Positions 8,229-64,000 of a stretch of DNA of 64,000 nucleotides are shown piece by piece. The stretch is from positions 1,879,970 to 1,943,969 of the forward strand of contig NZ_CP087263.1 of the NCBI RefSeq assembly GCF_020923435.1. The letters are read 5' to 3'. The position numbers were made by a program, and so were the translations under genes. The notes beneath the pieces were generated by a model. That model worked only from the letters and a program-made list of their open reading frames with translations, ran no database searches and was not told the DNA's origin. The stretch is from Brevibacillus humidisoli. GTDB taxonomy: Bacteria; Bacillota; Bacilli; Brevibacillales; Brevibacillaceae. The first letter of the stretch is position 1; each line of letters starts with the position of its first letter.

Positions 8229-8505
8229 TCAGCTCTGTGAAGGCGCGATACAGAATTGCTGTGTGATTTTCTGTTTTATCTCGTTGACAGGGTAATCATC
8301 AGGAAAAGTCGATATCATCAGCATCGCCCCATGCAGAGTGGAGGAAAAATAGAGAGAGCGCAAACGCCAATCGCTCACCCCCAGTTTGGCGAACATCTCG
8401 CACTGCACTTCAAGCCGTGCGTATATTTTCTTTCGTTGCTTCACGAATACGATCATTCTCTTCCCGGGTACGAGGCTTTTTACTAGTAGAAACGGTAACG
8501 ATAAA
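8229..8505 (-). pseudogene. TetR-family regulator remnant with deletion and frameshift
   Basis: In one minus-strand frame (8410-8505) the sequence reads KKPRTREENDRIREATKENI, typical of the extreme N-terminus of TetR regulators, and ends in a stop at 8410-8412. In the adjoining frame (8229-8408) it reads LRSLYFSSTLHGAMLMISTF and a C-terminal helix resembling the TetR ligand domain. The helix-turn-helix and middle of the protein are absent, so this is a dead gene with an internal deletion and frame change. Confidence 0.5.
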
Positions 8506-8637
8506 AGGCAGTCTGCCATCGGATGGGCATACTGCCTTCTTACTTGTTGGCTGCCTGCCTCTTGACCGTACCCTGAGGGAACAGGGTAAGCTTTTAGCAT
8601 AGGTGTATCACTTCATTGAGAAAGGAAGGATTTTCTT

Positions 8638-49287: not shown

Positions 49288-50934
49288 CTATACCTCCTGC
49301 ATGCTTTGCTTGTCACGCGAGAAGGACAGCGGAGAGAACATTCGTCTGATGCCGTATATGGCATTTGCTGCTGTACAGGCCGCTACATGCCGGCTTGTGC
49401 GAAGGGGATGAGAAACTTCGGCTCTGTGCCTGTACTGCTTCAGCTGTTCCAACGTTAGCCTTTTCGCTGCCATCGCCTCCTCAAACTCCTTCTGTGCAGC
49501 CTGTTTAGCCTTAAACAAGGTCATCTGCACCCTGCTGTATACATTGATCGCCCCGTCACCCGTTGTTTCAATCGGCAGGAAGATGGCATCCGGGTATTTT
49601 TCGGTAATCAGGGACTGCACCCCATCAGAGACGCCAGAAGACGGCATGCAGCCGAAAGGCTTGACGGAAATCGTCATATTTACTTTCCGCTTGACCACAT
49701 TGAGGATCAGCTTGCCTACTTCCATATGTCCCTCGCCGCCACGCAGATGGTTGTTGTAGTGATCATGGGCTACGCCTGCGATCTCGTCCATATCAGGCAG
49801 ATGGTAGTCCTTTAGGCCAATCGCCTTTGCGTAGGTCTGGAACATAATGCGCAGTACGCGGTCAGCCAGCCACAGCATCCGCAGACGGGTGACCGGGTTT
49901 TTCCCTTCCAATCCGTAGCGCCCGCCGTCCTCTCCACGCAGCTTCATTCGTTTCTTGGTGTCGTAGCGCCCTTCCCAGATCAGGTACAAGATCCACGCTG
50001 TAAGGGACTGTACTTCTACTTCGGCCCCTTCCTTTTCCAGAAAACGCTGCAGTTGATAGTTTCCGTCCCCCTCTGTGGTCATCGCCCAAAACTCGCCGAG
50101 AATGCTCACTTTTGGCTTGACCAGCGTCCGATCAACCTGGATCGTGCTTAATTCCTTACGACATGTGAGCAAAGTAGGGAGCAGTGACTTGCCCTGTTTT
50201 AGTGTTTCGTACAGCATCTTTTTACAGCGCTCCATCACGGCATCGGTGGATCCCGCTACCACTTCGTAAGGGCGAATACGGTAAGCAGCGGCGTTGAGAA
50301 TATCCCCCAGCAGTACCGCTTTTAAAAAGCTGAGGAAGAACGAGGTGTCCAACTTTAACGCAGATTCGTCTCCAGTGGCCTGTTTTAATCCGCTCTGCTG
50401 CTGGAACAACAGCACGCGGAACCCGTCAAAACCTGCATCGCGCAATGCTTTACGGTATTCGGTCACATAAGTGCCAAAGCGGCAGGGACCACAGGAACCG
50501 CTGGTGATGAACAGGTAGTTGCCGACGATTTCCTCTTTCGATTTCCCTTCAACATCCCGCAAGTGATGCAGGTATTTGATCAGGTTGCCCACGGTGAAAT
50601 AGGTCGGGTTGCACTGACCACGGTTGCCAAATTCTTTGCCAAATCGCAGCGAATCGTTGTCCGGACAATCGAGGTGGCGTACCTTGTAGCCAAGTCCGGC
50701 TAGTGCCCCTTCCACCAGGTAATCGTGCGCCATCGTCAATCCGCCAAACAAGATCGTGGTCGTCTCCTTATCCTTGGCAAAAAACTGGCGCGGAACCGGA
50801 TCAAACCACTGCGCTCTTTTTTCCTGCTGCAATCCCAAAGCCAGCTCTTGTTCAGCCTGGAACCGAGCCAGTTCAGCCTCCTTCGGAGACTGTTCGATTC
50901 TTTGCCCGTCGGCCGCTTCTTTGATCGTTGACAT
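49288..50934 (-). CDS. 2-hydroxyacyl-CoA dehydratase-like protein
   Basis: The 548-aa product resembles the D-component/activase-associated family of 2-hydroxyglutaryl-CoA dehydratase. Conserved Cys-containing blocks include LFITSGSCGPCRFGTY (near residue 145) and VKPFGCMPSSGVSDG (near residue 455), likely iron-sulfur ligands. It is encoded 18 nt after the giant ATPase gene, so the two work together. In this aerobic-type gene context no hydroxyacyl-CoA pathway genes are visible. ATG 50934 follows AAGGAG; a GTG at 50946 is possible. Confidence 0.8.
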   Translation of the reverse strand: MSTIKEAADGQRIEQSPKEAELARFQAEQELALGLQQEKRAQWFDPVPRQFFAKDKETTTILFGGLTMAHDYLVEGALAGLGYKVRHLDCPDNDSLRFGKEFGNRGQCNPTYFTVGNLIKYLHHLRDVEGKSKEEIVGNYLFITSGSCGPCRFGTYVTEYRKALRDAGFDGFRVLLFQQQSGLKQATGDESALKLDTSFFLSFLKAVLLGDILNAAAYRIRPYEVVAGSTDAVMERCKKMLYETLKQGKSLLPTLLTCRKELSTIQVDRTLVKPKVSILGEFWAMTTEGDGNYQLQRFLEKEGAEVEVQSLTAWILYLIWEGRYDTKKRMKLRGEDGGRYGLEGKNPVTRLRMLWLADRVLRIMFQTYAKAIGLKDYHLPDMDEIAGVAHDHYNNHLRGGEGHMEVGKLILNVVKRKVNMTISVKPFGCMPSSGVSDGVQSLITEKYPDAIFLPIETTGDGAINVYSRVQMTLFKAKQAAQKEFEEAMAAKRLTLEQLKQYRHRAEVSHPLRTSRHVAACTAANAIYGIRRMFSPLSFSRDKQSMQEV

Positions 50935-50952
50935 CTCGTACTTCACTCCTTT

Positions 50953-53900
50953 TTACTGAGAAGATGCTCGATTTTTTTCCATTTCCGCTTGCGGTTGGTT
51001 CGTCTCATCGGCCCGTGTTTCCGCTGTCGATCGCCCAAACAGTTCCATTCTCTTTTCCTCGATAAGCCGCTGCAGCTCCGCTTTTTTACGGGCCAGATCC
51101 TCCAAGCGTTCTTCGTGCAGCCCCAAGCTATGGGCATAGGTTTTAACCCGGATCTTGATCGACCCGCTCGGCTTGTTTGCATCTATATCATGTAGGGCGG
51201 AGTACGGTGTCCCCGCTGTGGAGATGATCGAGTCGATCAGCCCATACGTAGGAGCATCGTGTCCACACTTGAAGCTGGACAAGTCCAATACCGCCACATT
51301 GGGGTGACGGGCTGCAAACTTGGCCGCCCACACCTTTTGCACACTGTTGGAACTGAAGTTCTCCGGCCAAACATCAGTCACATCCAAAGCGTATTCCACA
51401 CGTCCGTTCTCCAGATCGTCGCGGAAGAAGCGGCGTAGCCAGGCTTCGTCCTTGGGGATGGAACGCATCGAGAGAATCGGGTAGCCCAATACCTGGAACT
51501 CCTCTAGCACTCCGTGGTTCAGTCCGGGATCGGAATGATAGGGTCGTCCAATCATCAGGATCGCGATGCGATTTTCTTCCTCTACCTGTTCCAGAATCAC
51601 TTTTCCTCGCTCCTGCATCTCCGCGTCAAACAGGTTCATCGCTTGCCAGGCCTGCTCCACCGCGAAATCACTCTCATCTTCTGTGATTTCCAACTCGTCT
51701 TGGAATGCTTGATACAACTGTTGCTTCATCATGTGCAGTTCCGTGAAGGTGACCGCCGGATCGAGGTAGGTTACTCCTCTCGTCTCAAAAAAGTTTACCT
51801 CTTTCGTAAAAGCGGCCTTGATCACGTTGGGTGCTCCGGCTACGATCGGACAGCTGGCCGAATCCACCACGTTTTGCAGGTGTGTTGGGATATGGGTGAT
51901 ACAGGGAAAGAAGATGTAGTTAAGCGCCTTTCGCTCGTGGTGCTTGAAGAGCAAGTTATGGATGTGGGCCTGTGCCACTTTGGACGGATAACAAGGATCG
52001 ATCGATCCGTACTTGCCCCCTTCCTGCCACATCTCTTCACTGGTGAAGTCGCTGAACACGATGTTGCGTTTGTCGATGCCGAGTGTCTCAAAGTAGGTAC
52101 GCCAGAAGGGTGCTGTTGACCAGATGTTGAGCACGCGCGGAATACCGATCCGCAGCTGACTTCGCCGTTCTGCCGCTTCCTTGGAGGAGCGCTGAAAACT
52201 GCGACGGTAGGCCGTTTTTCGCATCCCGCCCAACCCGAACAAAGCGCGTTTCACTTTGAAATCCTCGACAGGCGCATCTCCCTCAGGCATTGGCTCCGGA
52301 TCGTAGAAATGTTGGTACATCCGCTGAGCCTCGTATTCGACCAGGTTGGGATAGTGTTTTTTCAGCGCCTGCCGCTTCTTGGTCAGTTCAACAACCGCTT
52401 CCTTGTCTTCAACGGTTCCTTTTTCACAGCTAAAACCGGAGATGTAGCGTGCCACCTGACCATCGGGCGTCTTGGAGTCGATAAACGTCCGGCTGCAGTG
52501 GTTGGGACAAAAGTTGCAGCGGGTCGATTCATCGTTGCGGGTGACGTAGTTTAAGTAGATCGCCGCATCCAACCCTAAAAACGTGGAGTACCCTCTGCGT
52601 TTGACTACTCGCAGTGTCTCCATTGCAGCGCCGATCGCTCCAGCCTCACCCGGATGAGGATGGACGTAGACCTCTGCATCAGGAACACGCTCCTTGATAT
52701 AGTCGACCTGCGCCTTGACGGCCGCGAGATTGTACTGCGTCCCGCCCTGCAGAACAAACTTGCGTCCTAGCTCAGCCATCCGCGGGATTTGTACCACGTA
52801 CTGCCATACATTTTTCGGCAGAACCATAGCAAGTCCGGCCAGCAGCTCTTCTTTGCTATAGCCCTCTTTTTGGAAGTTGACCCGATCTGCATCGAGAAAG
52901 ACTGCACACCCGTAGGAAAACTTGGGAGAGAGATCTGCTTTGAACGCTGTGTATGCATATTCTTGAATCGGAATGCCAAACTGGTCGGCCATCGCCTGCA
53001 GGAGCATGCCGTTCCCGGCCGAACATTGGTTGGACAGCCGGAAGTTGCGGATGTCTCTATTTTTTAGGAAGAGTACCTTAATGTCCTGACCGCCGATATC
53101 ACAGATCACATCGACGTCGCCAAACTGGTGGACGGCACTCATCATATGGGCGACGGTTTCTACAATGTTCACATCCGCCTGCAGGGTCTTCTCCAAAACA
53201 TCAGCGGCATATCCGGTAGCCCCGAAGCCGATGATCTCCAATTCCGCTCCCGCTCCTGTCACCTTGTCGCGGATTCGCTTCAGCATTTCCCTAGTGTCTT
53301 CGAGGGGGTTTCCTTTGGACAGTTGGTATTCTTTCAGCAGAATGGTACCGCTTTCATCCACCAGCACAGCCTTGGAAGAGGTGGAACCACCATCGAGACC
53401 AATCACTGCTTTCACTTTTTGGCCCGGTTTAAACTCTGCAGGTGTAAATTTCGGGATGCTGTAGGTCTGTCGGAATTTGTCCAGTTCGGCCACATTGTCA
53501 ACCAGAGGAGGACCGGCCTTCTCACCCAACTTTGCCTTTCGACCGTGAGCAATAAAATTTTTCAAACCCTCCAGACCGGTGTAGATCCCTACATCGGCTG
53601 GTTCGTGCATCCCGTACATCACCGCTCCGTAAGCCGCATAGTACTGGGAGTTTTCCGGCACGAAGATCAGTTCTTCCAGCGGTATGTCTTTGGGATATGC
53701 GTATCCCCGTTCCTCCCATGATTCAGGAATTCGCTTGCGCCAGCATTCCTGGAGAAAAGGTAGGTATGTATTGGGGCCACCCAGCAGAAGGACGCGATGC
53801 CGGAGCGTGTTGCCCCTAGTGAGAACCGACAGGTTTTGCATGACGATCGCATCTGCGAGCGAACACATGATCTCGGCTGAAGGAATGCCGCTTTTGACCA

Positions 53901-54474
53901 GGTTGACGATGTCCGTCTCCGCAAACACGCCGCATTTCGCCGCTACATGGTGCAGTTTCGAATCGTCAAAATGGAGCCGTCCTACCTCTTCGATCGGCAT
54001 GCCCACCTTGATCATGCATTTGTCAATCGTGGCTCCTGTACCGGACGCACACTTATCGTTCATGGAAGTGAGTGCCTGTTTGTCGCCGGTTTCTTGATTA
54101 GTCTTGAAGATGATGATCTTGGCGTCCTGCCCACCTAGTTCAATGACGCTCCCCACATCCGGATGCAGCCGCTCAACCGCCATCGTGACCGCATTTACCT
54201 CTTGTACAAATTTTGCTCCAATATGCTCGGCTATCGGTCCAGCTCCGGAACCGGTCACAAACACGCGGATCCGGTTTTGCGGAACACTGGCGAACTGATT
54301 GCCGATAGTAATCAAAAACTCCAGCACCTTCTCGGCCTGCTTGGTGTGGTGACGCTGATAGTCGGACCAAAGGATTTCATTGTTTGCTGGATTGACAACG
54401 GTGGCTTTGACAGTCGTCGAACCCACGTCAATGCCGATAATCAAAGAATCGAAGCTCTTTTCACCACTTTCCAT
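50953..54474 (-). CDS. Large BadF/BadG/HgdC-type ATPase with two ASKHA domains
   Basis: The 1173-aa protein begins with an ASKHA activase domain (IIGIDVGSTTVKATVV, then CASGTGATIDKC) at residues about 12-260. A second follows (VIGLDGGSTSSKAVLVDESG, then NQCSAGNGMLLQAM) at about 360-600. Next come a CxxCxxxC cluster (CNFCPNHC, about 655) and a DUF2229-like region (about 730-1000). HgdC-type ATPases inject electrons into dehydratases or reductases by ATP hydrolysis. The physiological substrate of this fused version is unknown. The gene lies immediately upstream of the dehydratase-like partner. Confidence 0.88.
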   Translation of the reverse strand: MESGEKSFDSLIIGIDVGSTTVKATVVNPANNEILWSDYQRHHTKQAEKVLEFLITIGNQFASVPQNRIRVFVTGSGAGPIAEHIGAKFVQEVNAVTMAVERLHPDVGSVIELGGQDAKIIIFKTNQETGDKQALTSMNDKCASGTGATIDKCMIKVGMPIEEVGRLHFDDSKLHHVAAKCGVFAETDIVNLVKSGIPSAEIMCSLADAIVMQNLSVLTRGNTLRHRVLLLGGPNTYLPFLQECWRKRIPESWEERGYAYPKDIPLEELIFVPENSQYYAAYGAVMYGMHEPADVGIYTGLEGLKNFIAHGRKAKLGEKAGPPLVDNVAELDKFRQTYSIPKFTPAEFKPGQKVKAVIGLDGGSTSSKAVLVDESGTILLKEYQLSKGNPLEDTREMLKRIRDKVTGAGAELEIIGFGATGYAADVLEKTLQADVNIVETVAHMMSAVHQFGDVDVICDIGGQDIKVLFLKNRDIRNFRLSNQCSAGNGMLLQAMADQFGIPIQEYAYTAFKADLSPKFSYGCAVFLDADRVNFQKEGYSKEELLAGLAMVLPKNVWQYVVQIPRMAELGRKFVLQGGTQYNLAAVKAQVDYIKERVPDAEVYVHPHPGEAGAIGAAMETLRVVKRRGYSTFLGLDAAIYLNYVTRNDESTRCNFCPNHCSRTFIDSKTPDGQVARYISGFSCEKGTVEDKEAVVELTKKRQALKKHYPNLVEYEAQRMYQHFYDPEPMPEGDAPVEDFKVKRALFGLGGMRKTAYRRSFQRSSKEAAERRSQLRIGIPRVLNIWSTAPFWRTYFETLGIDKRNIVFSDFTSEEMWQEGGKYGSIDPCYPSKVAQAHIHNLLFKHHERKALNYIFFPCITHIPTHLQNVVDSASCPIVAGAPNVIKAAFTKEVNFFETRGVTYLDPAVTFTELHMMKQQLYQAFQDELEITEDESDFAVEQAWQAMNLFDAEMQERGKVILEQVEEENRIAILMIGRPYHSDPGLNHGVLEEFQVLGYPILSMRSIPKDEAWLRRFFRDDLENGRVEYALDVTDVWPENFSSNSVQKVWAAKFAARHPNVAVLDLSSFKCGHDAPTYGLIDSIISTAGTPYSALHDIDANKPSGSIKIRVKTYAHSLGLHEERLEDLARKKAELQRLIEEKRMELFGRSTAETRADETNQPQAEMEKNRASSQ

Positions 54475-54594: not shown

Positions 54595-55289
54595 TTGACG
54601 GGCGATGAGGTCTTGCATACAACCGAAGTTCAGTTTGATAGAGTGGCAGAGGAATACGATTTTGTAGCCAGTCTCTTGAATGACAACACCTTTTTTCTTT
54701 CCAATCTGCCATCCAAGAGAGGAAGAGCGTTAGACATCGGGTGCGGTTCGGGGATTCTGGTTGATGCGTTAGCACCTTACTTCGATGAGGTGATCGGGAA
54801 CGATGTTTCAAATGAAATGCTTCACATTGCCAAAACAAAACGAAGCGATCAAATACCCGTTATGTGAACATGGACGCAGAACAGCTAGCGTTCCCCTATT
54901 CATTTGATTTCATCGTAAGCAGAACCACATTCCATCATCTGCAAGATCTGCAAGACGTACTCTTTCAAATAAAGGAAATGCTAAATGAGGGTGGCAAAAT
55001 CGTTATTCTGGATAATGTATCTGAGGTGGAGACTCCGCCTTCATATGGAGCGATACAAGAGTTTATCCCAAACTGCTTCCGATTTGGGATCAAAAACGCG
55101 GTACGGATCTGCAAGCACCAGACGTCAAAATCATGGCTAGACCACTTGGCGTCAGACAAGTACCTGTCCGAGCAACAATACTATGATCTATACGGGAAGA
55201 TACTGCCCAAATGTAGATTTCATAGAATGGGATGGGCGATGGGGGTCGTATGGGAGAAGCATCCGGGGTCTAGACAAGCACAACCTTAG
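54595..55289 (+). pseudogene. SAM-dependent methyltransferase, frameshifted
   Basis: The first frame (to the stop at 54865-54867) has TEVQFDRVAEEYDFVAS and the SAM motif I ALDIGCGSGILVDAL. The second frame (from about 54864) continues with DAEQLAFPYSFDFIVSRTTF, HHLQDLQDVL and NEGGKIVILDNV, the next class I methyltransferase motifs. Joined, they would be about 230 aa. A single lost base near 54862-54866 explains the split, either a real mutation or a sequencing error. The start is uncertain; TTG 54595 is a guess. It is divergent from the giant ATPase gene. Confidence 0.7.
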
Positions 55290-55310
55290 CCCCAAAACAC
55301 CGGGCTAAGG
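55284..55310 (+). terminator. Hairpin after the methyltransferase gene
   Basis: CCTTAGCCC and GGGCTAAGG form a perfect 9-bp stem, overlapping the end of the methyltransferase frame. No T-tract follows, so termination is uncertain. Nothing else is recognised to 55437. Confidence 0.45.
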
Positions 55311-55437
55311 TCGTGGGTTACATTGATGAGGTTCTAGTAAATGGCAGCGGAGATCAAAGGAAGATGAAACCGTCTGACAATGGGAGGTTCGTGTAACCCG
55401 AAGCGATCGGCGCCACACTACCAGACGGCTCCATGAA

Positions 55438-56178
55438 TCATGCGGAGTCTTCGATACCAGCAACTTGAAACCAGCGGTCAGGGTAGTTTGTGCAAATCTG
55501 GATCGCTTCGTGCCATTGCGCTACCATCCGCATATGATCCGGGTGATCGATCGTCCAGGCGATCAATTCCACTCCCCAGGACACCACCTCTTCCGCCAGC
55601 TCAGCCGACAGATACGGGTAGGCAAGCGATACGATGCCTGCTCCCAGCTCAGCCACCTGATTACGGAGCAGCACCGGCAGCCCGTGGATAATCGGGCCAA
55701 CTGTCAACTCAGGAGCCAGCTGCTTCACTTTCTGCACACTCAGGTGGTCAAATGAGGTGACCACCACTTGTTCCTGCATGCCGCGCCGGCGGATCAACGA
55801 GACCACCTTTTCCTCCAATCCACGGTAGCGGTTAGCAGCTTGTTTCAATTCGATATTAAGGCGTTTCTTGCCGCGGGAGACGACCAGCACCTCCTCCAAA
55901 GAGGGAATCCGTTGCGCAGCGTATTTGGGATCGAACCAACTTCCTGCATCCAGCTGGCGCAGTTCTTCATACGTGTGCTGCATTACCAGACCGGAGCCGG
56001 TTGTCGTCCTCTCCAGTGTAAAGTCGTGGATCACCACCGGAACGCCATCTCTTGTCAGCTGCACATCGATCTCGATTGCGTCTACACCCGGATGGTCTAA
56101 GGCCATGCCGATGGCAGCCAGTGTATTTTCCGGTGCGGCACCTGACCATCCGCGGTGGGCCATGCATTGATTTCTCAT
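55438..56178 (-). CDS. Glycerophosphodiester phosphodiesterase, UgpQ/GlpQ-like
   Basis: The 246-aa cytosolic enzyme hydrolyses glycerophosphodiesters to glycerol-3-phosphate and an alcohol. MAHRGWSGAAPENTLAA, EIDVQLTRDGVPVVIHD and LNIELKQ are the catalytic and metal-binding blocks of the GDPD family. No signal peptide is visible, matching a role downstream of the adjacent uptake system. It is separated from ugpB by 175 nt containing a strong hairpin, so it may be only partly cotranscribed. Confidence 0.9.
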   Translation of the reverse strand: MRNQCMAHRGWSGAAPENTLAAIGMALDHPGVDAIEIDVQLTRDGVPVVIHDFTLERTTTGSGLVMQHTYEELRQLDAGSWFDPKYAAQRIPSLEEVLVVSRGKKRLNIELKQAANRYRGLEEKVVSLIRRRGMQEQVVVTSFDHLSVQKVKQLAPELTVGPIIHGLPVLLRNQVAELGAGIVSLAYPYLSAELAEEVVSWGVELIAWTIDHPDHMRMVAQWHEAIQICTNYPDRWFQVAGIEDSA

Positions 56179-56307
56179 CCCTTCGCCTCCTCACCATTAG
56201 AAAACGCGGCTTGTCGCCTGATTCCAACGGCGTGGCCGACGTTTTTCATATCCAGTCCATCCCTATCGCGTGCCCGAGACCAACTGTCCACTTTCGATGA
56301 TACAAGG

Positions 56308-56342
56308 GGAAAAGGCTGTACCGATCGGTTTCAGCCTTTTCC
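56308..56342 (-). terminator. Strong hairpin between ugpB and the phosphodiesterase gene
   Basis: GGAAAAGGCTG and CAGCCTTTTCC form a perfect 11-bp stem with an inner CCGATCGG dyad in the loop. The minus-strand tail CCCTTG is poor in T, so it may attenuate rather than stop transcription, or stabilise the upstream mRNA. Confidence 0.6.
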
Positions 56343-56353
56343 TTGCTGTCCTC

Positions 56354-57673
56354 TTATTTTAGCAGTTTTTGCGCTTTTTCGGCAGCTGTTTCCAGTGCTT
56401 CCTCCGGTGACGCCTGACCTAGAATGGCACGTTGAATCTCTGTCATGATAATCTCCTGCAGTTCCTTGTACCCTGGTGCCTTCGGACGTGGTTTCGCATA
56501 TTCCAACTGGTTGACGGCTACTTGGAACTGTGGTTTTTCGGCGTACAGCTTTTTCATCTCTTCGCTGCTCAGCGCAGACTGCCGAACCGGCATATATCCG
56601 GTGTTTTTACTAAAAGTTGCCGTATTCTCCGGACTGGTGAGCCACTTGATAAATTTCCAGGCAGCCGCTTTTTCTTCTGCACTGGACTTGGCCAAAACCA
56701 CCAGGTTGGCTCCGCCAGTCGGCACTCCGTAGCTTTCTTTTGCCGGCAAAAAGGCAGTACCAACATCGAACTTGGCCTGTTCGAGCAGACCGTTCAAGTC
56801 GCCTGTCGAGGTAAAGATCATCGCTACTTTCTGGTTGATAAAGTCACTCTTGGCCACATCCCAGGCGTTGTACTTCTCACCCGGCGGCATCTTCATGATG
56901 CCCTCGTCAATCATCTCTTTCCAGAAACGGATCGGCTCGATCCCCTTAGGCTGGTTAAACATCACGGTTTTTCCATCTTCGCTGAGGATGTTGCCGCCAT
57001 TCTCGAACACCAGCGCCTCATAGAACCAGATGTCGATCGGTGTGGAGAAGCCCCACGTCTGCTTCTCTCCCTCTCCACCGCTCGACGCCTTGGAAAACGT
57101 ACGAAGTTCATCCCAGGTTTTCGGTCCCTCAATCGGCAGATCGGCCTGTTTTAGCATATCCCGATTGATGTAGAGTAGTGGCGTAGAACGATTAAAAGGG
57201 ATAGCATACAACGTATCTTTCCAATACGAGTTGCCCATCAATCCGGGAATGTAATCGTTCAACTCAACGCCATCGCTGCCGTTCACATAGGATTCCAGCG
57301 GCTCTAGTGCGCCGTTTTCGGCAAAGGCGGCGATAGAACCGATCTCTACCATCGTCAGATCGGGTTGGTTGCCAGCAGCGATCGCTGACATCACTTTTGC
57401 ATGATTTTCGTAATAGTCCCCTTGATAAGCTGCCTTGATCTTCACTTCGTTCTGCTCGCTGTTAAACTGTTTCACCAGCGTTTCAATCACTTCTCCGTTT
57501 TTCCCGCCGAGTGAATACCAGAAATCCACCTCAATCGGTCCCTTGCTATCCGTAGAAGCAGTCGTTGTCTGCGAACCGCTGTTAGCCGTAGTCTGTGTCT
57601 GCTGACTGCCGCAGCCGGCGATCACGGTAACGGCTGCCAGTACAACGGCGATCCAGGATTGTCTCTTATACAT
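56354..57673 (-). CDS. ugpB: Glycerol-3-phosphate ABC transporter substrate-binding lipoprotein
   Basis: The 439-aa product has a lipoprotein signal (VIAGCG near residue 22), a Ser/Thr-rich linker and a family-1 extracellular solute-binding domain (VDFWYSLGGKNGEVIETLV, NSYWKDTLYAIPFNRSTPLLYIN). The FNRSTPLLY block and operon partners (glpP, ugpA, ugpC, ugpE and a GDPD) indicate glycerol-3-phosphate or glycerophosphodiesters as ligand. GGAGGG precedes ATG 57673. Confidence 0.88.
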   Translation of the reverse strand: MYKRQSWIAVVLAAVTVIAGCGSQQTQTTANSGSQTTTASTDSKGPIEVDFWYSLGGKNGEVIETLVKQFNSEQNEVKIKAAYQGDYYENHAKVMSAIAAGNQPDLTMVEIGSIAAFAENGALEPLESYVNGSDGVELNDYIPGLMGNSYWKDTLYAIPFNRSTPLLYINRDMLKQADLPIEGPKTWDELRTFSKASSGGEGEKQTWGFSTPIDIWFYEALVFENGGNILSEDGKTVMFNQPKGIEPIRFWKEMIDEGIMKMPPGEKYNAWDVAKSDFINQKVAMIFTSTGDLNGLLEQAKFDVGTAFLPAKESYGVPTGGANLVVLAKSSAEEKAAAWKFIKWLTSPENTATFSKNTGYMPVRQSALSSEEMKKLYAEKPQFQVAVNQLEYAKPRPKAPGYKELQEIIMTEIQRAILGQASPEEALETAAEKAQKLLK

Positions 57674-57690
57674 GGAATCCCTCCACACGA

Positions 57691-58521
57691 TTATTTCACT
57701 CCAGAGTAAATAAAGGCACGAATGATGTGACGCTGTGCGACAAAAAAGATGATGAGAATCGGAATGACCAGTATCACGTTACCAGCCATGACAACGTTCC
57801 AGGCAACACCCCCCTCGTTCTCTTTCAACATGGCGATTCCGACAGGCAGCGTGCGAAACTGATCCTGATTGGTCATTACCAACGGCCAGAAATAGTCATT
57901 CCAGTGATAAATAAAGCTGAACAAGCTAAAGGTAACCAATACAGGCTTGGCCATCGGCACCATGATTCGCCAGATGATCTGCCACTCGCTTGCTTTATCC
58001 AGTCTCGCTGCTTCAATCAGTTCCTCGGGAACTTGGAGAAACGATTGACGCAGGAGAAAGATACCGAAGGCACTGGCCGCATACGGGAGAATCAGCGGCA
58101 AATAGCTGTTGATCACGTCCCACTCGCTCATCTGGATAAAGACTGGCAAGAATGTCAGCTGAGGTGGGATCATCAAGGCGATCAGCGTAATGCCAAACAA
58201 CAGTCTCGAGCCGCGAAAACGGTAGCGGGCAAACGCATATGCTGCTGGGATTCCGGTCGCCAACTGCAGCACGAGTATCGACACAGCGACAAACAAACTG
58301 TTAAAAAAGTAAGTAAAAAAGGGGCCTGATTCCCATGCCTGGACGAAGTTCTGCCAGATCGGCACATCAGGAATCCACTTTGGAGGGAATATCATCACCT
58401 CGTCAAATGCTTTCAGCGAAGTAAGCATCATCCAGACAAACGGAAAAATAAAGACGAGTGCTACCAGCAGCAATACTACTCTTTCCAAATGCTTGCTCCA
58501 TGCGTACAATCGGTGTAACAA
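57691..58521 (-). CDS. ugpE: Glycerol-3-phosphate ABC transporter permease UgpE
   Basis: The 276-aa inner-membrane protein has six hydrophobic helices and the EAA motif ELIEAARLDKASEWQIIWRI in its cytoplasmic loop, which docks to the ATPase. It belongs to the MalG/UgpE type. The start is TTG 58521, 8 nt after AAGGAGG. The gene lies 17 nt before ugpB. Confidence 0.9.
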   Translation of the reverse strand: MLHRLYAWSKHLERVVLLLVALVFIFPFVWMMLTSLKAFDEVMIFPPKWIPDVPIWQNFVQAWESGPFFTYFFNSLFVAVSILVLQLATGIPAAYAFARYRFRGSRLLFGITLIALMIPPQLTFLPVFIQMSEWDVINSYLPLILPYAASAFGIFLLRQSFLQVPEELIEAARLDKASEWQIIWRIMVPMAKPVLVTFSLFSFIYHWNDYFWPLVMTNQDQFRTLPVGIAMLKENEGGVAWNVVMAGNVILVIPILIIFFVAQRHIIRAFIYSGVK

Positions 58522-58565
58522 GCAGATCGCCTCCTTCTGTCAACGCTGACTGTAGACCGCCTGGA

Positions 58566-59438
58566 CTACCGGTAGTGAACCCGTTTGGCCAGCAGCATGA
58601 AATGAACGGCGGTCAGTACTCCGACCAAGATCAGCAGTACCACGCCGGCGGCCGCCGCGTAGCCAATCTTGAAGAAGTCAAACCCGTATTCATAGATAAA
58701 GAAGACCAGCATGTTGGTGCTGTTGACCGGCCCTCCCTGAGTCATGATCTTGACGGTGTCAAACACCTGAAAAGAGGCGATCGTGTTTACCACCAACAGA
58801 AAAAACAAGGTGGGAGACAGCATTGGCAGCGTAATAGCCACAAATCGACGCCAGGCAGGGGTTTTGTCCAATGCCGCGGCTTCGTATAGCTCCTTGGGAA
58901 TGCTTTGCAAACCTGCAACACAAATCAGGGTATTGTACCCGACGATCTTCCACACGCTGACCAAGATCAACCCCCAGATCGCAGAAGATGTGTCAGCGAG
59001 CCATTGTGACGGCGGCAGTCCGACCATGTGCAGCAACGCATTGAGCAGTCCATACTGCGGGTCCATCATCCACAACCAGAGCAGGGATACAGAGACCAAC
59101 GAGATGATGTACGGACTAAACACGGCCCCCTGGATCAGACTGTAAAACCATCCCCGGCGATTCAGCCAGAGCGCCATCAACAGACCGAGCAGCAGGGAAA
59201 TCGACACCGTGACAACTGTGTAAAACAAGGTATTTCCCAACACCTGTACAAACTCGGGATCGGCAAGCAGTTCCCGGTAGTTGTCCAATCCGACGTATTC
59301 TTTGACCGGATTGATCAGGTTCCACGAGGTGAAGCTCAGGTAGACCAGGTACAAGATCGGGTACAAGAAAAACAGGGCGAATACTATCAATGATGGCGTT
59401 AGATAGAGATAAGGGCGCAGTCCGAAGGCCGTACGCAT
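58566..59438 (-). CDS. ugpA: Glycerol-3-phosphate ABC transporter permease UgpA
   Basis: The 290-aa protein has six membrane helices and the MalF/UgpA-type EAA loop (PKELYEAAALDKTPAWRRF). It pairs with UgpE to form the translocation channel. GGAGGG within the 3' end of the ATPase gene precedes ATG 59438, and only 2 nt separate the two genes. Confidence 0.9.
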   Translation of the reverse strand: MRTAFGLRPYLYLTPSLIVFALFFLYPILYLVYLSFTSWNLINPVKEYVGLDNYRELLADPEFVQVLGNTLFYTVVTVSISLLLGLLMALWLNRRGWFYSLIQGAVFSPYIISLVSVSLLWLWMMDPQYGLLNALLHMVGLPPSQWLADTSSAIWGLILVSVWKIVGYNTLICVAGLQSIPKELYEAAALDKTPAWRRFVAITLPMLSPTLFFLLVVNTIASFQVFDTVKIMTQGGPVNSTNMLVFFIYEYGFDFFKIGYAAAAGVVLLILVGVLTAVHFMLLAKRVHYR

Positions 59439-59440
59439 CC

Positions 59441-60616
59441 TTACTGCCCTCCGATCTGCAATTGCCGCTGCTCGCTGGAGAGCTTGCCAGTGCTGTAATA
59501 GGCTTCGCGCGGTATGCGATTCCCTTTGGGGTCAAAATAGTGACAATGGATGTGCGGCAGGGAAACCAGTACCCGCTGGTCAAGCTGAAACAGTTCATCG
59601 TGGTAATCGCGTGCAGTCAAGGTTCCCAGTGGTGTATCAACCGTATAAATGGTTTCCGCACCGAGCGCCTCCCGAGAGACAATCACGCCGTTGGTCTCGT
59701 AAGCAGCTGTCTGCGGAGCCGTGATATCCAGATCAGCACGGCTGAGCTTTACTTTCTCCGGTCGTATCCCCAGATAGACGCTTTGTCCTCGCCAGTCGCG
59801 GAGCGATTGCCCATGTGGTTGAGAGAGCGTCAGCAGGATCGCCTGTCGGCCAACTCCCATTGTCGTCCCGGACGGATCGACAACAGCCCTTAACAGGTTC
59901 ATTGGCGGTGTACCGATAAACTGTGCGACAAACAGATTGCTGGGTGTGTCATAGACCGTGAGAGGTTCCGCTGCCTGCTGGATCTGACCTTCGTTCATCA
60001 GCACAATCTGATCCCCCATTGACATTGCCTCTGCTTGATCATGGGTAACGTAGATGAACGTGGTACCCAACTGCTTGTGCAGTTGTATCAACTCCTGCCG
60101 CATCTGTTGGCGCAGTTTGGCATCCAGATTGGAGAGAGGTTCGTCCATCAGAAATACACTTGGCTTCTTCACCATCGCTCTAGCCAAGGCGACCCGCTGA
60201 CGCTGGCCGCCAGAGAGCGTCCCTGGTTTTCTGGACAGATAATCTTCCAGGCCGACCACCTGGGCGATCTCCTCCACCAGTTGTTTTCGCTCGTTCTTCG
60301 GGACTTTCCGGTTGCGCAGTCCAAACTCGATGTTCTCTCGTACACTCATCGTCGGATAGAGCGCGTAGTTTTGAAACACCATGGCTAGATCGCGATCGCC
60401 CGGCGGTTTTGCCGTCACATTCTCCTCTCCGATCCACACTTCTCCCGATGTGACCTGCTCCAGCCCGGCAATGATCCGCAGCGTCGTTGACTTGCCGCAG
60501 CCTGAGGGACCAAGCAGTACAGTAAACGATCCCTCAGTTATTTCGATGGATAGATGTTCCATGACCACCTGACGATCATACGATTTGGTTACGTCTTTTA
60601 GTCTAACGGAAGCCAT
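59441..60616 (-). CDS. ugpC: ABC transporter ATP-binding protein UgpC
   Basis: The 391-aa ATPase has Walker A GPSGCGKST, signature LSGGQRQRVALARAM, Walker B FLMDEPLSNLDAKLR and a C-terminal TOBE-type regulatory domain, typical of the MalK/UgpC group. GAGGAGGAG precedes ATG 60616, which lies inside the end of glpP (14-bp overlap), so translation is coupled. It follows a GlpP homologue rather than a typical sugar regulator. Confidence 0.9.
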   Translation of the reverse strand: MASVRLKDVTKSYDRQVVMEHLSIEITEGSFTVLLGPSGCGKSTTLRIIAGLEQVTSGEVWIGEENVTAKPPGDRDLAMVFQNYALYPTMSVRENIEFGLRNRKVPKNERKQLVEEIAQVVGLEDYLSRKPGTLSGGQRQRVALARAMVKKPSVFLMDEPLSNLDAKLRQQMRQELIQLHKQLGTTFIYVTHDQAEAMSMGDQIVLMNEGQIQQAAEPLTVYDTPSNLFVAQFIGTPPMNLLRAVVDPSGTTMGVGRQAILLTLSQPHGQSLRDWRGQSVYLGIRPEKVKLSRADLDITAPQTAAYETNGVIVSREALGAETIYTVDTPLGTLTARDYHDELFQLDQRVLVSLPHIHCHYFDPKGNRIPREAYYSTGKLSSEQRQLQIGGQ

Positions 60617-61235
60617 GCACGCTCCTCCTCTCTTGATTGGCGCTCCAGCGACTGATCGCATCCGTTCTCCATAGTTCCGGGTTTCCCGTGGATACTGCCA
60701 GTGCTCCGCAGCGGAGCGGTTCCAGCAGATGCTCTTCCTGCTCGATCAATCCGCCGGTAATAATCGGAATGCTGACATTCCTGCGAATACGTGCGATCAA
60801 CTCTGGAATTCTCGCCGGCATCAGTTCCGCCGCATCCGGCATGGAATCCCGCAGTGCTTCCACCCCTGTGTCCAGCGCGTCACTATCTATGCAAAAGATC
60901 CGCTGAACCGTCAACATATTCAGTTTTTTCGCCTGCTTGATCACACTGCTCTTGGTCGAGATAATCCCGGTCGGCTTGACGGTTTGGGCAATAAATTCCA
61001 ATCCCTCCCTGTCGTGGCTCAGTCCCCCGATCAGATCGACATGGAGCAGTACAAACTTATCGTGCGCCTTGAACAAATCGACATACCGCTTTACCACGCT
61101 GATGTTGCCGGTAAGCAAAAAGACGCCTCCTACATCTGCTGATAGTGCTTTCTCGATCGTTTTCGGCGATTTCACCGTGGCAATCAGGGGGCATGTATGC
61201 AATCGATCATAGAAGAGTTGTCTCGTTGTGGCCAT
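60603..61235 (-). CDS. glpP: GlpP-family glycerol-3-phosphate-responsive antiterminator
   Basis: The 210-aa TIM-barrel-like product matches GlpP: LIATVKSPKTIEKAL, VFLLTGNISVVKRYVDLF, LLHVDLIGGLSHD, GIISTKSSVIKQAKK and ITGGLIEQEEHLLEPLRCGALAVSTG are conserved. B. subtilis GlpP binds leader mRNA with glycerol-3-phosphate and prevents termination at glpD and glpFK. Here the gene is first in the ugp operon, just after a leader terminator, implying autoregulation. GGAGAGG precedes ATG 61235. Confidence 0.92.
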   Translation of the reverse strand: MATTRQLFYDRLHTCPLIATVKSPKTIEKALSADVGGVFLLTGNISVVKRYVDLFKAHDKFVLLHVDLIGGLSHDREGLEFIAQTVKPTGIISTKSSVIKQAKKLNMLTVQRIFCIDSDALDTGVEALRDSMPDAAELMPARIPELIARIRRNVSIPIITGGLIEQEEHLLEPLRCGALAVSTGNPELWRTDAISRWSANQERRSVHGFR

Positions 61236-61268
61236 CTGTCATCCTCTCCTTTTTAGAGGCGCTGCGGC

Positions 61269-61334
61269 AAAAAAAGAAAACCTATGAACACGTAACCGGG
61301 TGCAATCCACCGCTGCTACGTTTTCCATAGGTTT
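61269..61334 (-). promoter_or_regulatory. Leader terminator/attenuator of the glpP-ugp operon
   Basis: In the leader, AAACCTATG and CATAGGTTT form a 9-bp outer stem. Inside, ACGTA/TACGT and GGGTG/CCACC (one mismatch) build a longer branched hairpin, and the minus strand then reads TTTTCTTTTTTT. A full terminator between promoter and glpP is the expected target of a GlpP-type antiterminator. It might alternatively bind another ligand or protein. Confidence 0.7.
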
Positions 61335-61382
61335 CTGATTCCTCTCTACCCTTGTCACGCGCTATCTACTTGTCATGACTCA

Positions 61383-61447
61383 AGTGTACAAGGGATTGAT
61401 TAAGTTGTTACGAACCGCCCGTAAAGGGTTTGTTAAAGGTTGGTTAA
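61383..61447 (-). promoter_or_regulatory. PhoP-box array and -10 of the glpP-ugp operon
   Basis: On the minus strand TTAACC (61442), TTAACA (61431), TTTACG (61420), TTCGTA (61409) and TTAATC (61398) recur exactly every 11 bp, the layout of PhoP sites in Bacillus (TT(A/T)ACA repeats). TACACT (61383-61388) is placed as the -10, without a normal -35. The first repeat overlaps the end of the thioredoxin-like gene. Confidence 0.6.
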
Positions 61448-61791
61448 GCCTCGCTTAAAGCCTCACTGATCTGGACCGTGCGATCGAGAAAATGCTCAAT
61501 CTCTTCTCTGCTTTTGCCCAGCTTGCTGACGAAGCGGATCAATTCTTTTCCCTGCTGAAACGCGATGAAACTGGGGATGCCCAGCACGTCCAACTGCTCG
61601 GCCAGCTCAGGCAAATGATCGCGGTTGACCGCCACCATGTCCAGTTTCTCTTGATAGGCCGCTTCCACTTCTGGCATGAATGGATCGATTCTATGGCAGT
61701 CAGGACACCACGTAGTATAAAACTTGACCACTACAGGTTTGTTGGATTGAATCGCCCGCTCAAACTCCGCTTGGTTGGCAATCTCTTTCAT
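61444..61791 (-). CDS. Thioredoxin-family protein
   Basis: The 115-aa protein has one thioredoxin domain with the active-site motif WCPDC (residues about 30-34) rather than WCGPC, and [18 protein letters not shown] with the conserved cis-Pro. It is probably a cytosolic redox or disulfide-exchange protein, similar to YtpP-type thioredoxin-like proteins. GAGGAGGG precedes ATG 61791; the frame is open to 61812. It lies between the LysR gene and the ugp operon promoter. Confidence 0.87.
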
Positions 61792-61853
61792 GCAGATCCC
61801 TCCTCTTCTCACGTTTTGTATAGTGTATCACGCTGACGCTTTTTTTGTCCCCC

Positions 61854-62756
61854 TCACTCGACACTTTCGACAGGGTGTTCTCCTCTACCCAGCAGGATGT
61901 CGATAAAGGCACGGGCGGGTTGAGAGAGCCTGCGATCTTTGCGGTACGCCACTACGAGTGTCCTCTCCGGCCTGGTCCGCAGACGGACGTAGGCAGGTGC
62001 CGTCGTTCCCCAGGCGGAGCGCGTAATCATCTCCGGTGCGAACGAAACGCCCATCCCTGCAGCCACCAATGACTGAACGGTTTGAATGTTGCTGCTCTCA
62101 AAGACGATCCGCGGTTGAAAGCCAGCCTGCTCACAAAGCGAGAGGGAGATCTGGCGAAAGCCCTGCCCTTCCTTTAATAGGATAAACGGCTGAGTGGACA
62201 ATTCAGCCAAATCAACTTCTGCCTGCTCGGCAAAAGGATGCGACGGCGGCAGCGCCAAGTATATCTCTTCCTGAATGGCCGACTCATATCGTATCGTCGG
62301 CTCACTGATCGGCATCGTCAACAGACTGACGTCCAGTTTTCCGTTGACCAACAATTCTTCCAAGTGGCTGGAGGTCTCTTCGATCAACTGCAGTTCCACA
62401 TTGGGAAACTGTCTGGTAAAAGAAGGAATCACCTGTGGCAGCACGTACGCTCCGGTAATCGGCAGACTGCCTACCAAGAGTCTACCTGCTTGGCCAGAGG
62501 CGTACTCCCTCATCTCCCGTACCAGCCCTTCTGCCTGGTCCAGCAGCTTCTGCGCCACCTGAACAAACCGTTCCCCGGCGTCCGTCAAATCCACCTGCTG
62601 CGGCAGACGATGAAACAAACGAGTACCCAGAGTTTTTTCCAGCTTGGCGATTTGCTGGCTGAGCGACGGCTGAGCCAGATGCAGCCGGGCCGCAGCCCTG
62701 GAAAAACTTCTTTCCTGTGCGACTGCCAGAACATAACGGATTTGCCGCAGTTCCAT
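61854..62756 (-). CDS. LysR-family transcriptional regulator
   Basis: The 300-aa product starts with the LysR winged helix ([39 protein letters not shown]) and an effector-binding domain of the CysB/periplasmic-binding type. It is divergent from leuC, and a T-N11-A palindrome between the two genes fits its binding site, so it probably controls leucine biosynthesis in response to an isopropylmalate-type signal. AAGGGAGAG precedes ATG 62756. Confidence 0.9.
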
Positions 62757-62793
62757 CTCTCTCTCCCTTCCTATAACGATTTCCTATCACACG

Positions 62794-62839
62794 TATAATT
62801 ATTATATCTTTGACCTATTTCTATTCTGTATGATACAAC
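62794..62839 (+). promoter_or_regulatory. LysR-type box and leuC promoter
   Basis: TATAAT-T-ATTATA (62794-62806) is a perfect T-N11-A palindrome, just upstream of TTGACC (62810-62815) and, 18 bp later, TACAAC (62834-62839). An activator bound there would touch the -35 region. The distance to the leuC start leaves a short leader of about 50 nt with no room for a T-box. Confidence 0.5.
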
Positions 62840-62892
62840 GATTACATAGGAGAAGCAACGTACTGCTTCCTTTTTGGAAAAGGGGGATATCC

Positions 62893-64000
62893 GTGAAACC
62901 ACGTACCTTGTTTGAAAAGATCTGGGATCAACACGTCATCCACGAAGAGACAGGCAAACCAAGCCTGTTGTACATCGACCTGCACCTAGTCCACGAGGTG
63001 ACGTCACCACAAGCATTTGAAGGGCTGCGGTTAGCTCGACGAAAGGTGCGCCGTCCTGACTTGACGTTTGCCACGATGGACCACAACGTGCCGACCAAAG
63101 ACCGCTACAACATCACTGACCCCATCTCCCGCCAACAGATGGAGACACTGACCAAGAATTGTGCGGAATTCGGCATCCCGCTGGCTGACCTGTCCAGCCC
63201 GGATCAGGGGATCGTACACGTGATCGGACCGGAACTGGGACTCACTCATCCCGGGAAGACGATTGTTTGCGGCGACAGCCATACCTCGACGCATGGCGCA
63301 TTTGGCGCTCTGGCTTTTGGGATTGGCACCAGCGAAGTGGAACACGTCCTCGCCACCCAGTGTCTGCAACAGTCCAAACCGAAAACACTGGAAGTACATG
63401 TAAATGGACAACTTCCGCCTGGAGTGACTGCAAAAGATTTAATCTTGGCAATCATCGCCAAGTTCGGTACCGATTTTGCCACCGGCTACGTGATCGAATA
63501 CACTGGCGAAGCGATCAAGCAATTGACCATGGAAGAACGGATGACGGTCTGCAACATGTCGATTGAAGCAGGGGCGCGAGCCGGACTGATCGCACCCGAT
63601 GAGACCACATTTGCCTATCTAAAAGGGCGCCGCTACGCCCCACAAGGGGAAGATTTTGCAGCCGCTGTCGGAAAATGGAAGCAGTTGGTAACCGATCCTG
63701 GTGCCACTTATGACCACCGTGTCGAGATCAATGCCGCCGAAATCGCCCCGCAAGTAACCTGGGGTACCAGCCCTGGTATGGGAACAGACATTACGAGTGT
63801 CGTACCGGATCCTGCGTCGTTTGCTTCGGCTACACAGCGCAAGGCTGCTGCAGACGCCCTCGCATACATGGGACTTGCTCCAGGAACACCGATTAGTGAG
63901 ATCAAGATCGACCGCGTCTTTATCGGTTCCTGTACTAACGGCCGGATTGAGGACTTGCGCAAAGCCGCTGCGGTAGCAAAAGGACGCAAGGTGTCCGCTG
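62893..64000 (+). CDS. leuC: 3-isopropylmalate dehydratase large subunit, partial
   Basis: LeuC isomerises 2-isopropylmalate to 3-isopropylmalate in leucine biosynthesis. About 369 codons are visible; the gene continues beyond the window. The opening [61 protein letters not shown] and [14 protein letters not shown] are typical, and Cys in SCTNGR is a 4Fe-4S ligand. The start is GTG 62893, with AGGGGG 6 nt upstream. leuD probably follows outside. Confidence 0.96.

Follow-up and report, generated by a model that had tools for sequence, protein, structure and literature searches.

A likely GlpP-type attenuator behind a Pho-type promoter precedes glpP itself and a ugp-type operon in Brevibacillus humidisoli

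GlpP antitermination is already known, and the GlpP binding site has reportedly been mapped by Holmberg, Rutberg, Glatz and Darbon, at a site that may overlap the element described here. The cited passages of PMC9604022 name glpD, glpF, glpK, glpT and glpQ as GlpP targets in Bacillus subtilis, and those of PMC4415409 describe dual phosphate and carbon control of Escherichia coli ugp via PhoB and CRP; further background is given in passages of PMC7430163, PMC3997798, PMC3750489 and PMC7793946. The open-licence literature searched gave no report of a GlpP–ugp arrangement. The new parts of the system presented below are the ugp target, the layout and one letter of the 5′ box.

Within the window (the whole 64,000-nt stretch of B. 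humidisoli DNA that was analysed), the minus strand carries, in order, a Pho-type array, a −10-like TACACT, a leader of ~140 nt, glpP, ugpC, ugpA, ugpE, ugpB and a diesterase gene. We consider it highly probable that a GlpP-type attenuator behind a Pho-type promoter gates this glpP3–ugp operon, which would give phosphate-gated positive feedback. The features are as follows.

61398–61447, minus strand: Pho-type box whose five TT(A/C/T)A-type hexamers start every 11 nt, at 61447, 61436, 61425, 61414 and 61403
61383–61388, minus strand: putative −10 TACACT, with the predicted transcription start near 61376
61361–61373, minus strand: 5′ box ACAAGTAGATAGC, close to the predicted start of the RNA
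61329–61351, minus strand: antiterminator candidate, in which GGGU (61351–61348) pairs with ACCU (61332–61329) around a purine-rich loop
61276–61335, minus strand: stem of the terminator hairpin (folded region 61266–61338), whose 5′ arm (61335–61324) includes the antiterminator's ACCU
61269–61280, minus strand: terminator T-run TTTTCTTTTTTT, its first letters also paired in the stem
61243–61250, minus strand: ribosome binding site AGGAGAGG
60603–61235, minus strand: glpP3, GlpP-family antiterminator of 210 aa (Pfam PF04309, E 8.1e-60)
59441–60616, minus strand: ugpC-type ATPase (best family NF008653 UgpC, 419.5 bits, under the 432 cut-off)
58566–59438, minus strand: ugpA-type permease (best family NF007852 UgpA, 163.6 bits, under cut-off)
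57691–58521, minus strand: ugpE-type permease (best family NF008210 UgpE, 150.9 bits, under cut-off)
56354–57688, minus strand: ugpB-type substrate-binding lipoprotein (best family NF008211 UgpB, 167.3 bits, under cut-off)
55438–56178, minus strand: glycerophosphodiester phosphodiesterase (Pfam PF03009, E 4.2e-41)

By its family match, the identity of the first gene as glpP is firm: GlpP3 scores 201.6 bits against PF04309 (cut-off 27) over profile positions 2–173 of 173, and its structural matches are PDB 3kts (E 2e-35) and 1vkf. None of the four transporter genes reaches its NCBIfam UgpABCE equivalog cut-off, though in each case the Ugp family scores best, and the substrate that these best but below-cut-off families imply is a likely one. 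The start of the ugpC-type gene at 60616 is a predicted one within an open frame that begins at 60661, and the diesterase gene is probably the last of the operon. An Rfam sR7 match inside the ugpE-type gene (58348–58402, minus strand, E 0.0017) falls below the gathering score and is probably due to chance. Elsewhere in the window, a pair of large acyl-CoA-dehydratase-activase-like genes, named by eye, occupies 50953–54474 and 49288–50946 near the operon, and a LysR-type regulator (61854–62756) diverges from a leuC-like gene (62830–64000, leuC by eye) in an ordinary layout.

Folded alone, the leader hairpin reaches −29.9 kcal/mol compared with −14.9 ± 3.1 kcal/mol in 200 shuffles (z −4.8), none of which folded as well, and TTTTCTTTTTTT follows the stem. 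An intrinsic terminator is therefore found in the 5′ UTR, between the putative promoter and the first gene, where the preliminary description had placed a hairpin with a T-run. That description had also called the terminator branched, which does not hold, as the minimum-energy fold is a single extended, unbranched stem with internal loops. The hairpin was absent from the list given by a generic terminator pattern scan of the window, probably because its long stem and internal loops misfit the scan's stem and loop rules. The run's final T and the glpP ATG (61235–61233) are only 33 nt apart, and this interval already contains the ribosome binding site, so that there is hardly space for a promoter between hairpin and glpP, a position that the preliminary description had held to be incompatible with its reading.

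Before the terminator's 3′ arm is made, the minimum-energy fold of the window RNA is the GGGU/ACCU pairing, at −4.0 kcal/mol for the 52-nt piece. The short stem alone is worth −1.7 kcal/mol, against about −30 kcal/mol for the terminator. With an antiterminator so much weaker than its competitor, everything would rest on the protein, and such weakness is expected if a protein must hold the stem.

We then compared the leader with those of relatives. A GlpP search in 59 related genomes gave matches in 51, and the 30 best loci (window included) are of the GlpP3 type. A leader defined by ACAAGT[AG] followed by a terminator end of GGTTT type lies upstream of glpP at 29 of these 30 loci, L031 being the sole exception, and a ugpC-type gene falls within the fetched flank at 28. 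The conserved order is promoter, 5′ box ACAAGT-RR-AtA, a GGTT/AACC-type stem around a GGAG N4 GGAGA purine loop, and a terminator that draws the AACC strand of the short stem into its own 5′ arm. ACAAGT is constant in the 29-leader alignment by construction, since rows were chosen with the ACAAGT[AG] search; G40, G41, G44, A58 and C60 of the antiterminator region (leader-alignment numbering) are invariant independently of the selecting pattern. The window's copy is a diverged member, in which the second GGAGA reads TCAGA, and relatives carry a similar TACCAT at the −10 position.

Two leader models extended this comparison. Model R1, built from 18 leaders without those of the window, L006 and L018, placed the window leader first of 9 matches in its own 4.9-Mb genome, but weakly (15.4 bits, E 0.89). 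Model R2, trained on 35 leaders, among them glpD and glpF types and the window leader itself, also ranked the window leader first, followed by the glpD1 and glpD2 leaders, neither of which was in training; the glpF leader of the same genome gave a weak match only (E 0.29, local search). Across 299 genomes of the class, 80 have an R2 match at E up to 0.02. We annotated 76 matches, a chosen part of two model searches that excludes most same-family GlpP3 matches already collected and two matches from genera of the glpD type (G306 and G150), and nearly all matches with E above 0.02 from one of the two pooled searches lie outside this set. In 67 of the 76, the first matched gene within 900 nt downstream is a glp or ugp gene (GlpD1-like 40, GlpP3 12, GlpD2-like 8, GlpF 3, GlpP2 2, UgpC 2). 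The nine without such an assignment comprise five glpT genes (NCBIfam), two of which are followed by a diesterase-like gene (one of the two tested), one dhaK, one gene for a 2-aminoethylphosphonate-type binding protein, one HAD/MFS cluster and L085, a match judged to be chance and retained in the count. The R1 matches L091 and L093 were also judged to be chance and were excluded from the 76.

Some of these leaders have other neighbours. The GlpP-type leader before dhaK (L140 in G185) precedes a dihydroxyacetone kinase gene, a target unnamed in the cited passages, and that of L113 (G092) stands before the 2-aminoethylphosphonate-type gene, whose family score is below cut-off. L082 and L149 (family f22) hold a distant GlpP and ugpB-like pair with the leader stem CAGGC/GCCTG.

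Scanned with an exact pattern, 84,980 named genomes yielded 56 stretches, mainly from Paenibacillus, Brevibacillus and Aneurinibacillus. Fifty-four precede ugpB (22), glpP3 (18), glpD (13) or ugpC (1), and two end too early to assign, one of them with a GlpD-like frame. Most of the glpD and glpF leaders that the models recovered also carry the ACAAGT-type 5′ box. Because the same 5′ box, covarying stem and terminator precede glpD, glpF and glpT, known GlpP-controlled targets in B. subtilis, the window's hairpin resembles a GlpP-type conditional terminator.

Covariation in homologous leaders, a check proposed in the preliminary description, shows the antiterminator stem being kept by letter changes. 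Duplicate rows were removed before the counts, taking 107 rows to 85 for the helix score, with 105 for the terminator and 69 for exact complementarity; since related genomes do not count as independent samples, the shuffle counts cannot be read as probabilities. In a test that lets the stem register shift, the helix score of the short stem averaged 10.9 over 85 distinct leaders compared with 8.9 ± 0.24 for shuffled partners, a value matched in 0 of 1000 shuffles. Exact Watson–Crick complementarity of at least 4 letters was found in 54 of 69 leaders (30.7 ± 3.3 when shuffled), with pairs as different as GGTT/AACC, GGTC/GACC, GTAGA/TCTAC, TGTGA/TCACA and CAGGC/GCCTG. When columns are held fixed, the covariation is modest: 94.8% of cells are paired in 88 aligned leaders versus 92.3% after shuffling, with 13 doubly changed cells versus 5.0 (0 of 500 shuffles), and only two of the four pairs change on both sides; 35 rows gave 2 doubly changed cells versus 0.3. 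As an alternative to the terminator, the leaders can thus form an antiterminator stem that shares letters with its 5′ arm, though with modest covariation in fixed columns. The T-run adjoins a terminator stem of at least 8 closing pairs in 101 of 105 distinct leaders, against 32 on average with the stem region shuffled. No pairing of the 5′ box with other leader parts was seen by eye.

PhoP boxes consist of tandem TT(A/C/T)A(C/A/T)A hexamers that repeat every 11 nt. Upstream of the −10, the window's array (TTAACC, TTAACA, TTTACG, TTCGTA and TTAATC at exact 11-nt steps) agrees with this consensus, and it is unique on both strands of the 64 kb as a set of four repeats scoring 21 or more of 24. 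A four-hexamer array (p 0.05 versus shuffles) precedes 36 of 42 ugp leaders, versus 5 of 63 other leaders. In the named set it accompanies 19 of 22 ugpB-first, 16 of 18 glpP3-first and 0 of 1 ugpC-first leaders (35 of 41 ugp leaders in total) and 0 of 15 glpD leaders. The Pho box of the preliminary description is thus present, as is its combination with an attenuator; such double control is not peculiar to this window, since the combination recurs in Brevibacillus, Aneurinibacillus and Paenibacillus.

From this arrangement we infer protein binding, the inducer, the direction of control, the acting paralogue and feedback as follows. Phosphate shortage would start transcription from the Pho-type promoter, as suggested by the repeat array, and RNA polymerase would transcribe the 5′ box and then the GGGU...ACCU region. 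If active GlpP is absent, the ACCU strand would join the long terminator stem and the transcript would stop before glpP. GlpP with glycerol-3-phosphate would instead bind the short antiterminator stem and its purine loop, so that the terminator stays open and transcription runs on through glpP3–ugpC–ugpA–ugpE–ugpB and the diesterase gene. The first round would have to come from leaky read-through or from the two further GlpP paralogues. Because glpP3 lies behind the terminator and the operon imports the likely inducer, positive feedback gated by phosphate shortage would follow. The main proposal of the preliminary description, a GlpP-type attenuator on a Pho-type promoter preceding glpP itself together with ugp, is therefore largely right.

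The position of glpP3 relative to the terminator differs between lineages. It is first behind the leader in 18 named stretches (Brevibacillus, Aneurinibacillus and one Paenibacillus, L225), as in the window. The ugpB-first stretches are nearly all from Paenibacillus, and 21 of 22 have a GlpP3-type gene upstream on the same strand, outside the terminator, at 60–303 nt to the matched end; the one without it, L249, is a 7.5-kb contig. On one contig of an uncultured Brevibacillus (G010:C15), two leaders, L224 and L247, stand ~4 kb apart, before glpP3 and ugpC. With glpP3 just outside and upstream of the leader in Paenibacillus, self-inclusion is a lineage variant of a wider GlpP3–ugp partnership. 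Both wirings, glpP3 behind or before the terminator, are natural, making the effect of a feedback loop directly comparable.

Which GlpP acts on the leader bears on the strongest rival. The genome of B. humidisoli has three GlpP paralogues; outside the window, two more glpP genes stand before glpFKD and glpD2, with the same kind of leader (L004:5966-6110 and 8462-8530; L005:5041-5160), and GlpP2 lies near an ABC transporter cluster (L005, by eye). The attenuator could thus be worked mainly by GlpP1 or GlpP2 in trans, leaving glpP3 as a passenger or with another task and no true self-control, a reading that we consider unlikely. It can draw on the three genes themselves and on two genomes. G024 has a ugp leader (L089), and its sole GlpP match, encoded on a different contig, is of the GlpP2 type (87% to GlpP2); G157 has a GlpP3-type protein only, yet a glpD-type leader, so that one protein probably reads both leader kinds.

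Phylogeny and gene neighbourhood argue for GlpP3 instead. The tree separates GlpP1 (32 rows) from GlpP2 plus GlpP3 (46 rows) with support of 100/100, and GlpP3 forms its own clade of 40 rows, L031 included (100/99). A GlpP3-type gene adjoins 39 of the 41 named ugp leaders (among 56 named stretches), and a GlpP1-type gene lies upstream of 13 of 15 named glpD leaders, the other two having no GlpP within the stretch. In G072, the GlpP3-type gene sits in the same ugp cluster (L084), beyond the diesterase gene. Self-control by GlpP3 is what we infer from this locus pairing, with G024 speaking against it.

The ugp leaders also share a purine after AAGT that is missing from most glpD and glpF leaders. 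In the named set, whose search pattern left this letter free, all 41 ugp leaders carry a purine here and all 15 glpD leaders a T. Among distinct rows, a purine follows in 37 of 37 ugp leaders, although 29 ugp rows of the wider set were chosen by ACAAGT[AG] and the purine is built into these, and T follows in 37 of 42 GlpD1 and GlpF rows (32 of 37 and 5 of 5, respectively). Of the five non-T rows, two have a double AAGT mis-scored as A and three lack AA[GC]T. GlpD2 rows have 3 G and 2 T, and four weak GlpD and two GlpP2 rows lack AA[GC]T. In G157, G092, G177 and G311 the only GlpP resembles GlpP2 or GlpP3 more than GlpP1 (leaving aside another, very weak match in G311), yet their leaders are of the T type; together with G024, these genomes speak against a strict code, and a paralogue code in this letter is a possible reading of the alignments.

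A broader proposal is that each cell runs parallel GlpP channels, GlpP1 for glpF and glpD and GlpP3 for a phosphate-gated ugp, told apart by AAGT-T versus AAGT-purine, with the 5′ box as a second, specificity-giving protein contact. We hold this tentatively, at somewhat less than even chances. If it is right, the Brevibacillus-type ugp channel, in which the terminator stands before the channel's own antiterminator gene, could act as a switch with memory, armed by the phosphate signal and triggered by glycerol-3-phosphate, and Paenibacillus would have the same parts wired without the loop. Should the 5′ box set specificity, these leaders would offer a clean system for studying how cross-talk between paralogous RNA-binding antiterminators is prevented.

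An ordinary constitutive terminator, either that of the upstream gene or a fixed leader terminator without regulation, is very improbable. Intrinsic terminators are common, and a co-oriented thioredoxin-like gene (61444–61812) does lie about 210 nt upstream of glpP; the hairpin, however, follows a promoter-like sequence, with the next start codon about 30 nt further on, the leader 5′ of the hairpin is better conserved than the hairpin itself, the short stem covaries, and the element occurs behind differing upstream genes and before known GlpP target genes. Slimmer still is the chance of a protein-free riboswitch sensing glycerol-3-phosphate or another small molecule, which the conserved loop letters and riboswitch-like expression platform would suit, given that the conserved part is small (a ~10-nt box and a 4–6-bp stem with a purine loop), that the element precedes genes reported as GlpP-dependent in B. 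subtilis in the cited passages of PMC9604022, and that 4227 Rfam models searched at E up to 1 over window positions 55000–64000 and nine related loci gave only unrelated matches, all below gathering scores, none on a leader and none of a riboswitch kind.

The GlpP-type attenuator can finally be set beside the known systems. With the LicT, SacY and GlcT antiterminators and their RAT sites it would share a short, protein-stabilised hairpin competing with a terminator (the RNAs were compared through Rfam), whereas those proteins belong to another family and respond to PTS phosphorylation (PMC7430163). Like the E. coli system in the cited passages of PMC4415409, the window would place a ugp-type importer under phosphate and carbon signals; E. 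coli does so with two promoters and a DNA-binding activator, and the window would use one promoter and an RNA attenuator. B. subtilis GlpP at glpD, glpFK and glpT/glpQ has in common with the window a PF04309 regulator and a 5′ UTR terminator, and across many genomes of the class the leaders of glpD, glpF and glpT have the same box, antiterminator stem and terminator as the window. The window differs in its ugp-type ABC importer target, in having glpP itself first behind the terminator, in its Pho-type promoter, and in a purine, rather than T, after AAGT in the 5′ box.
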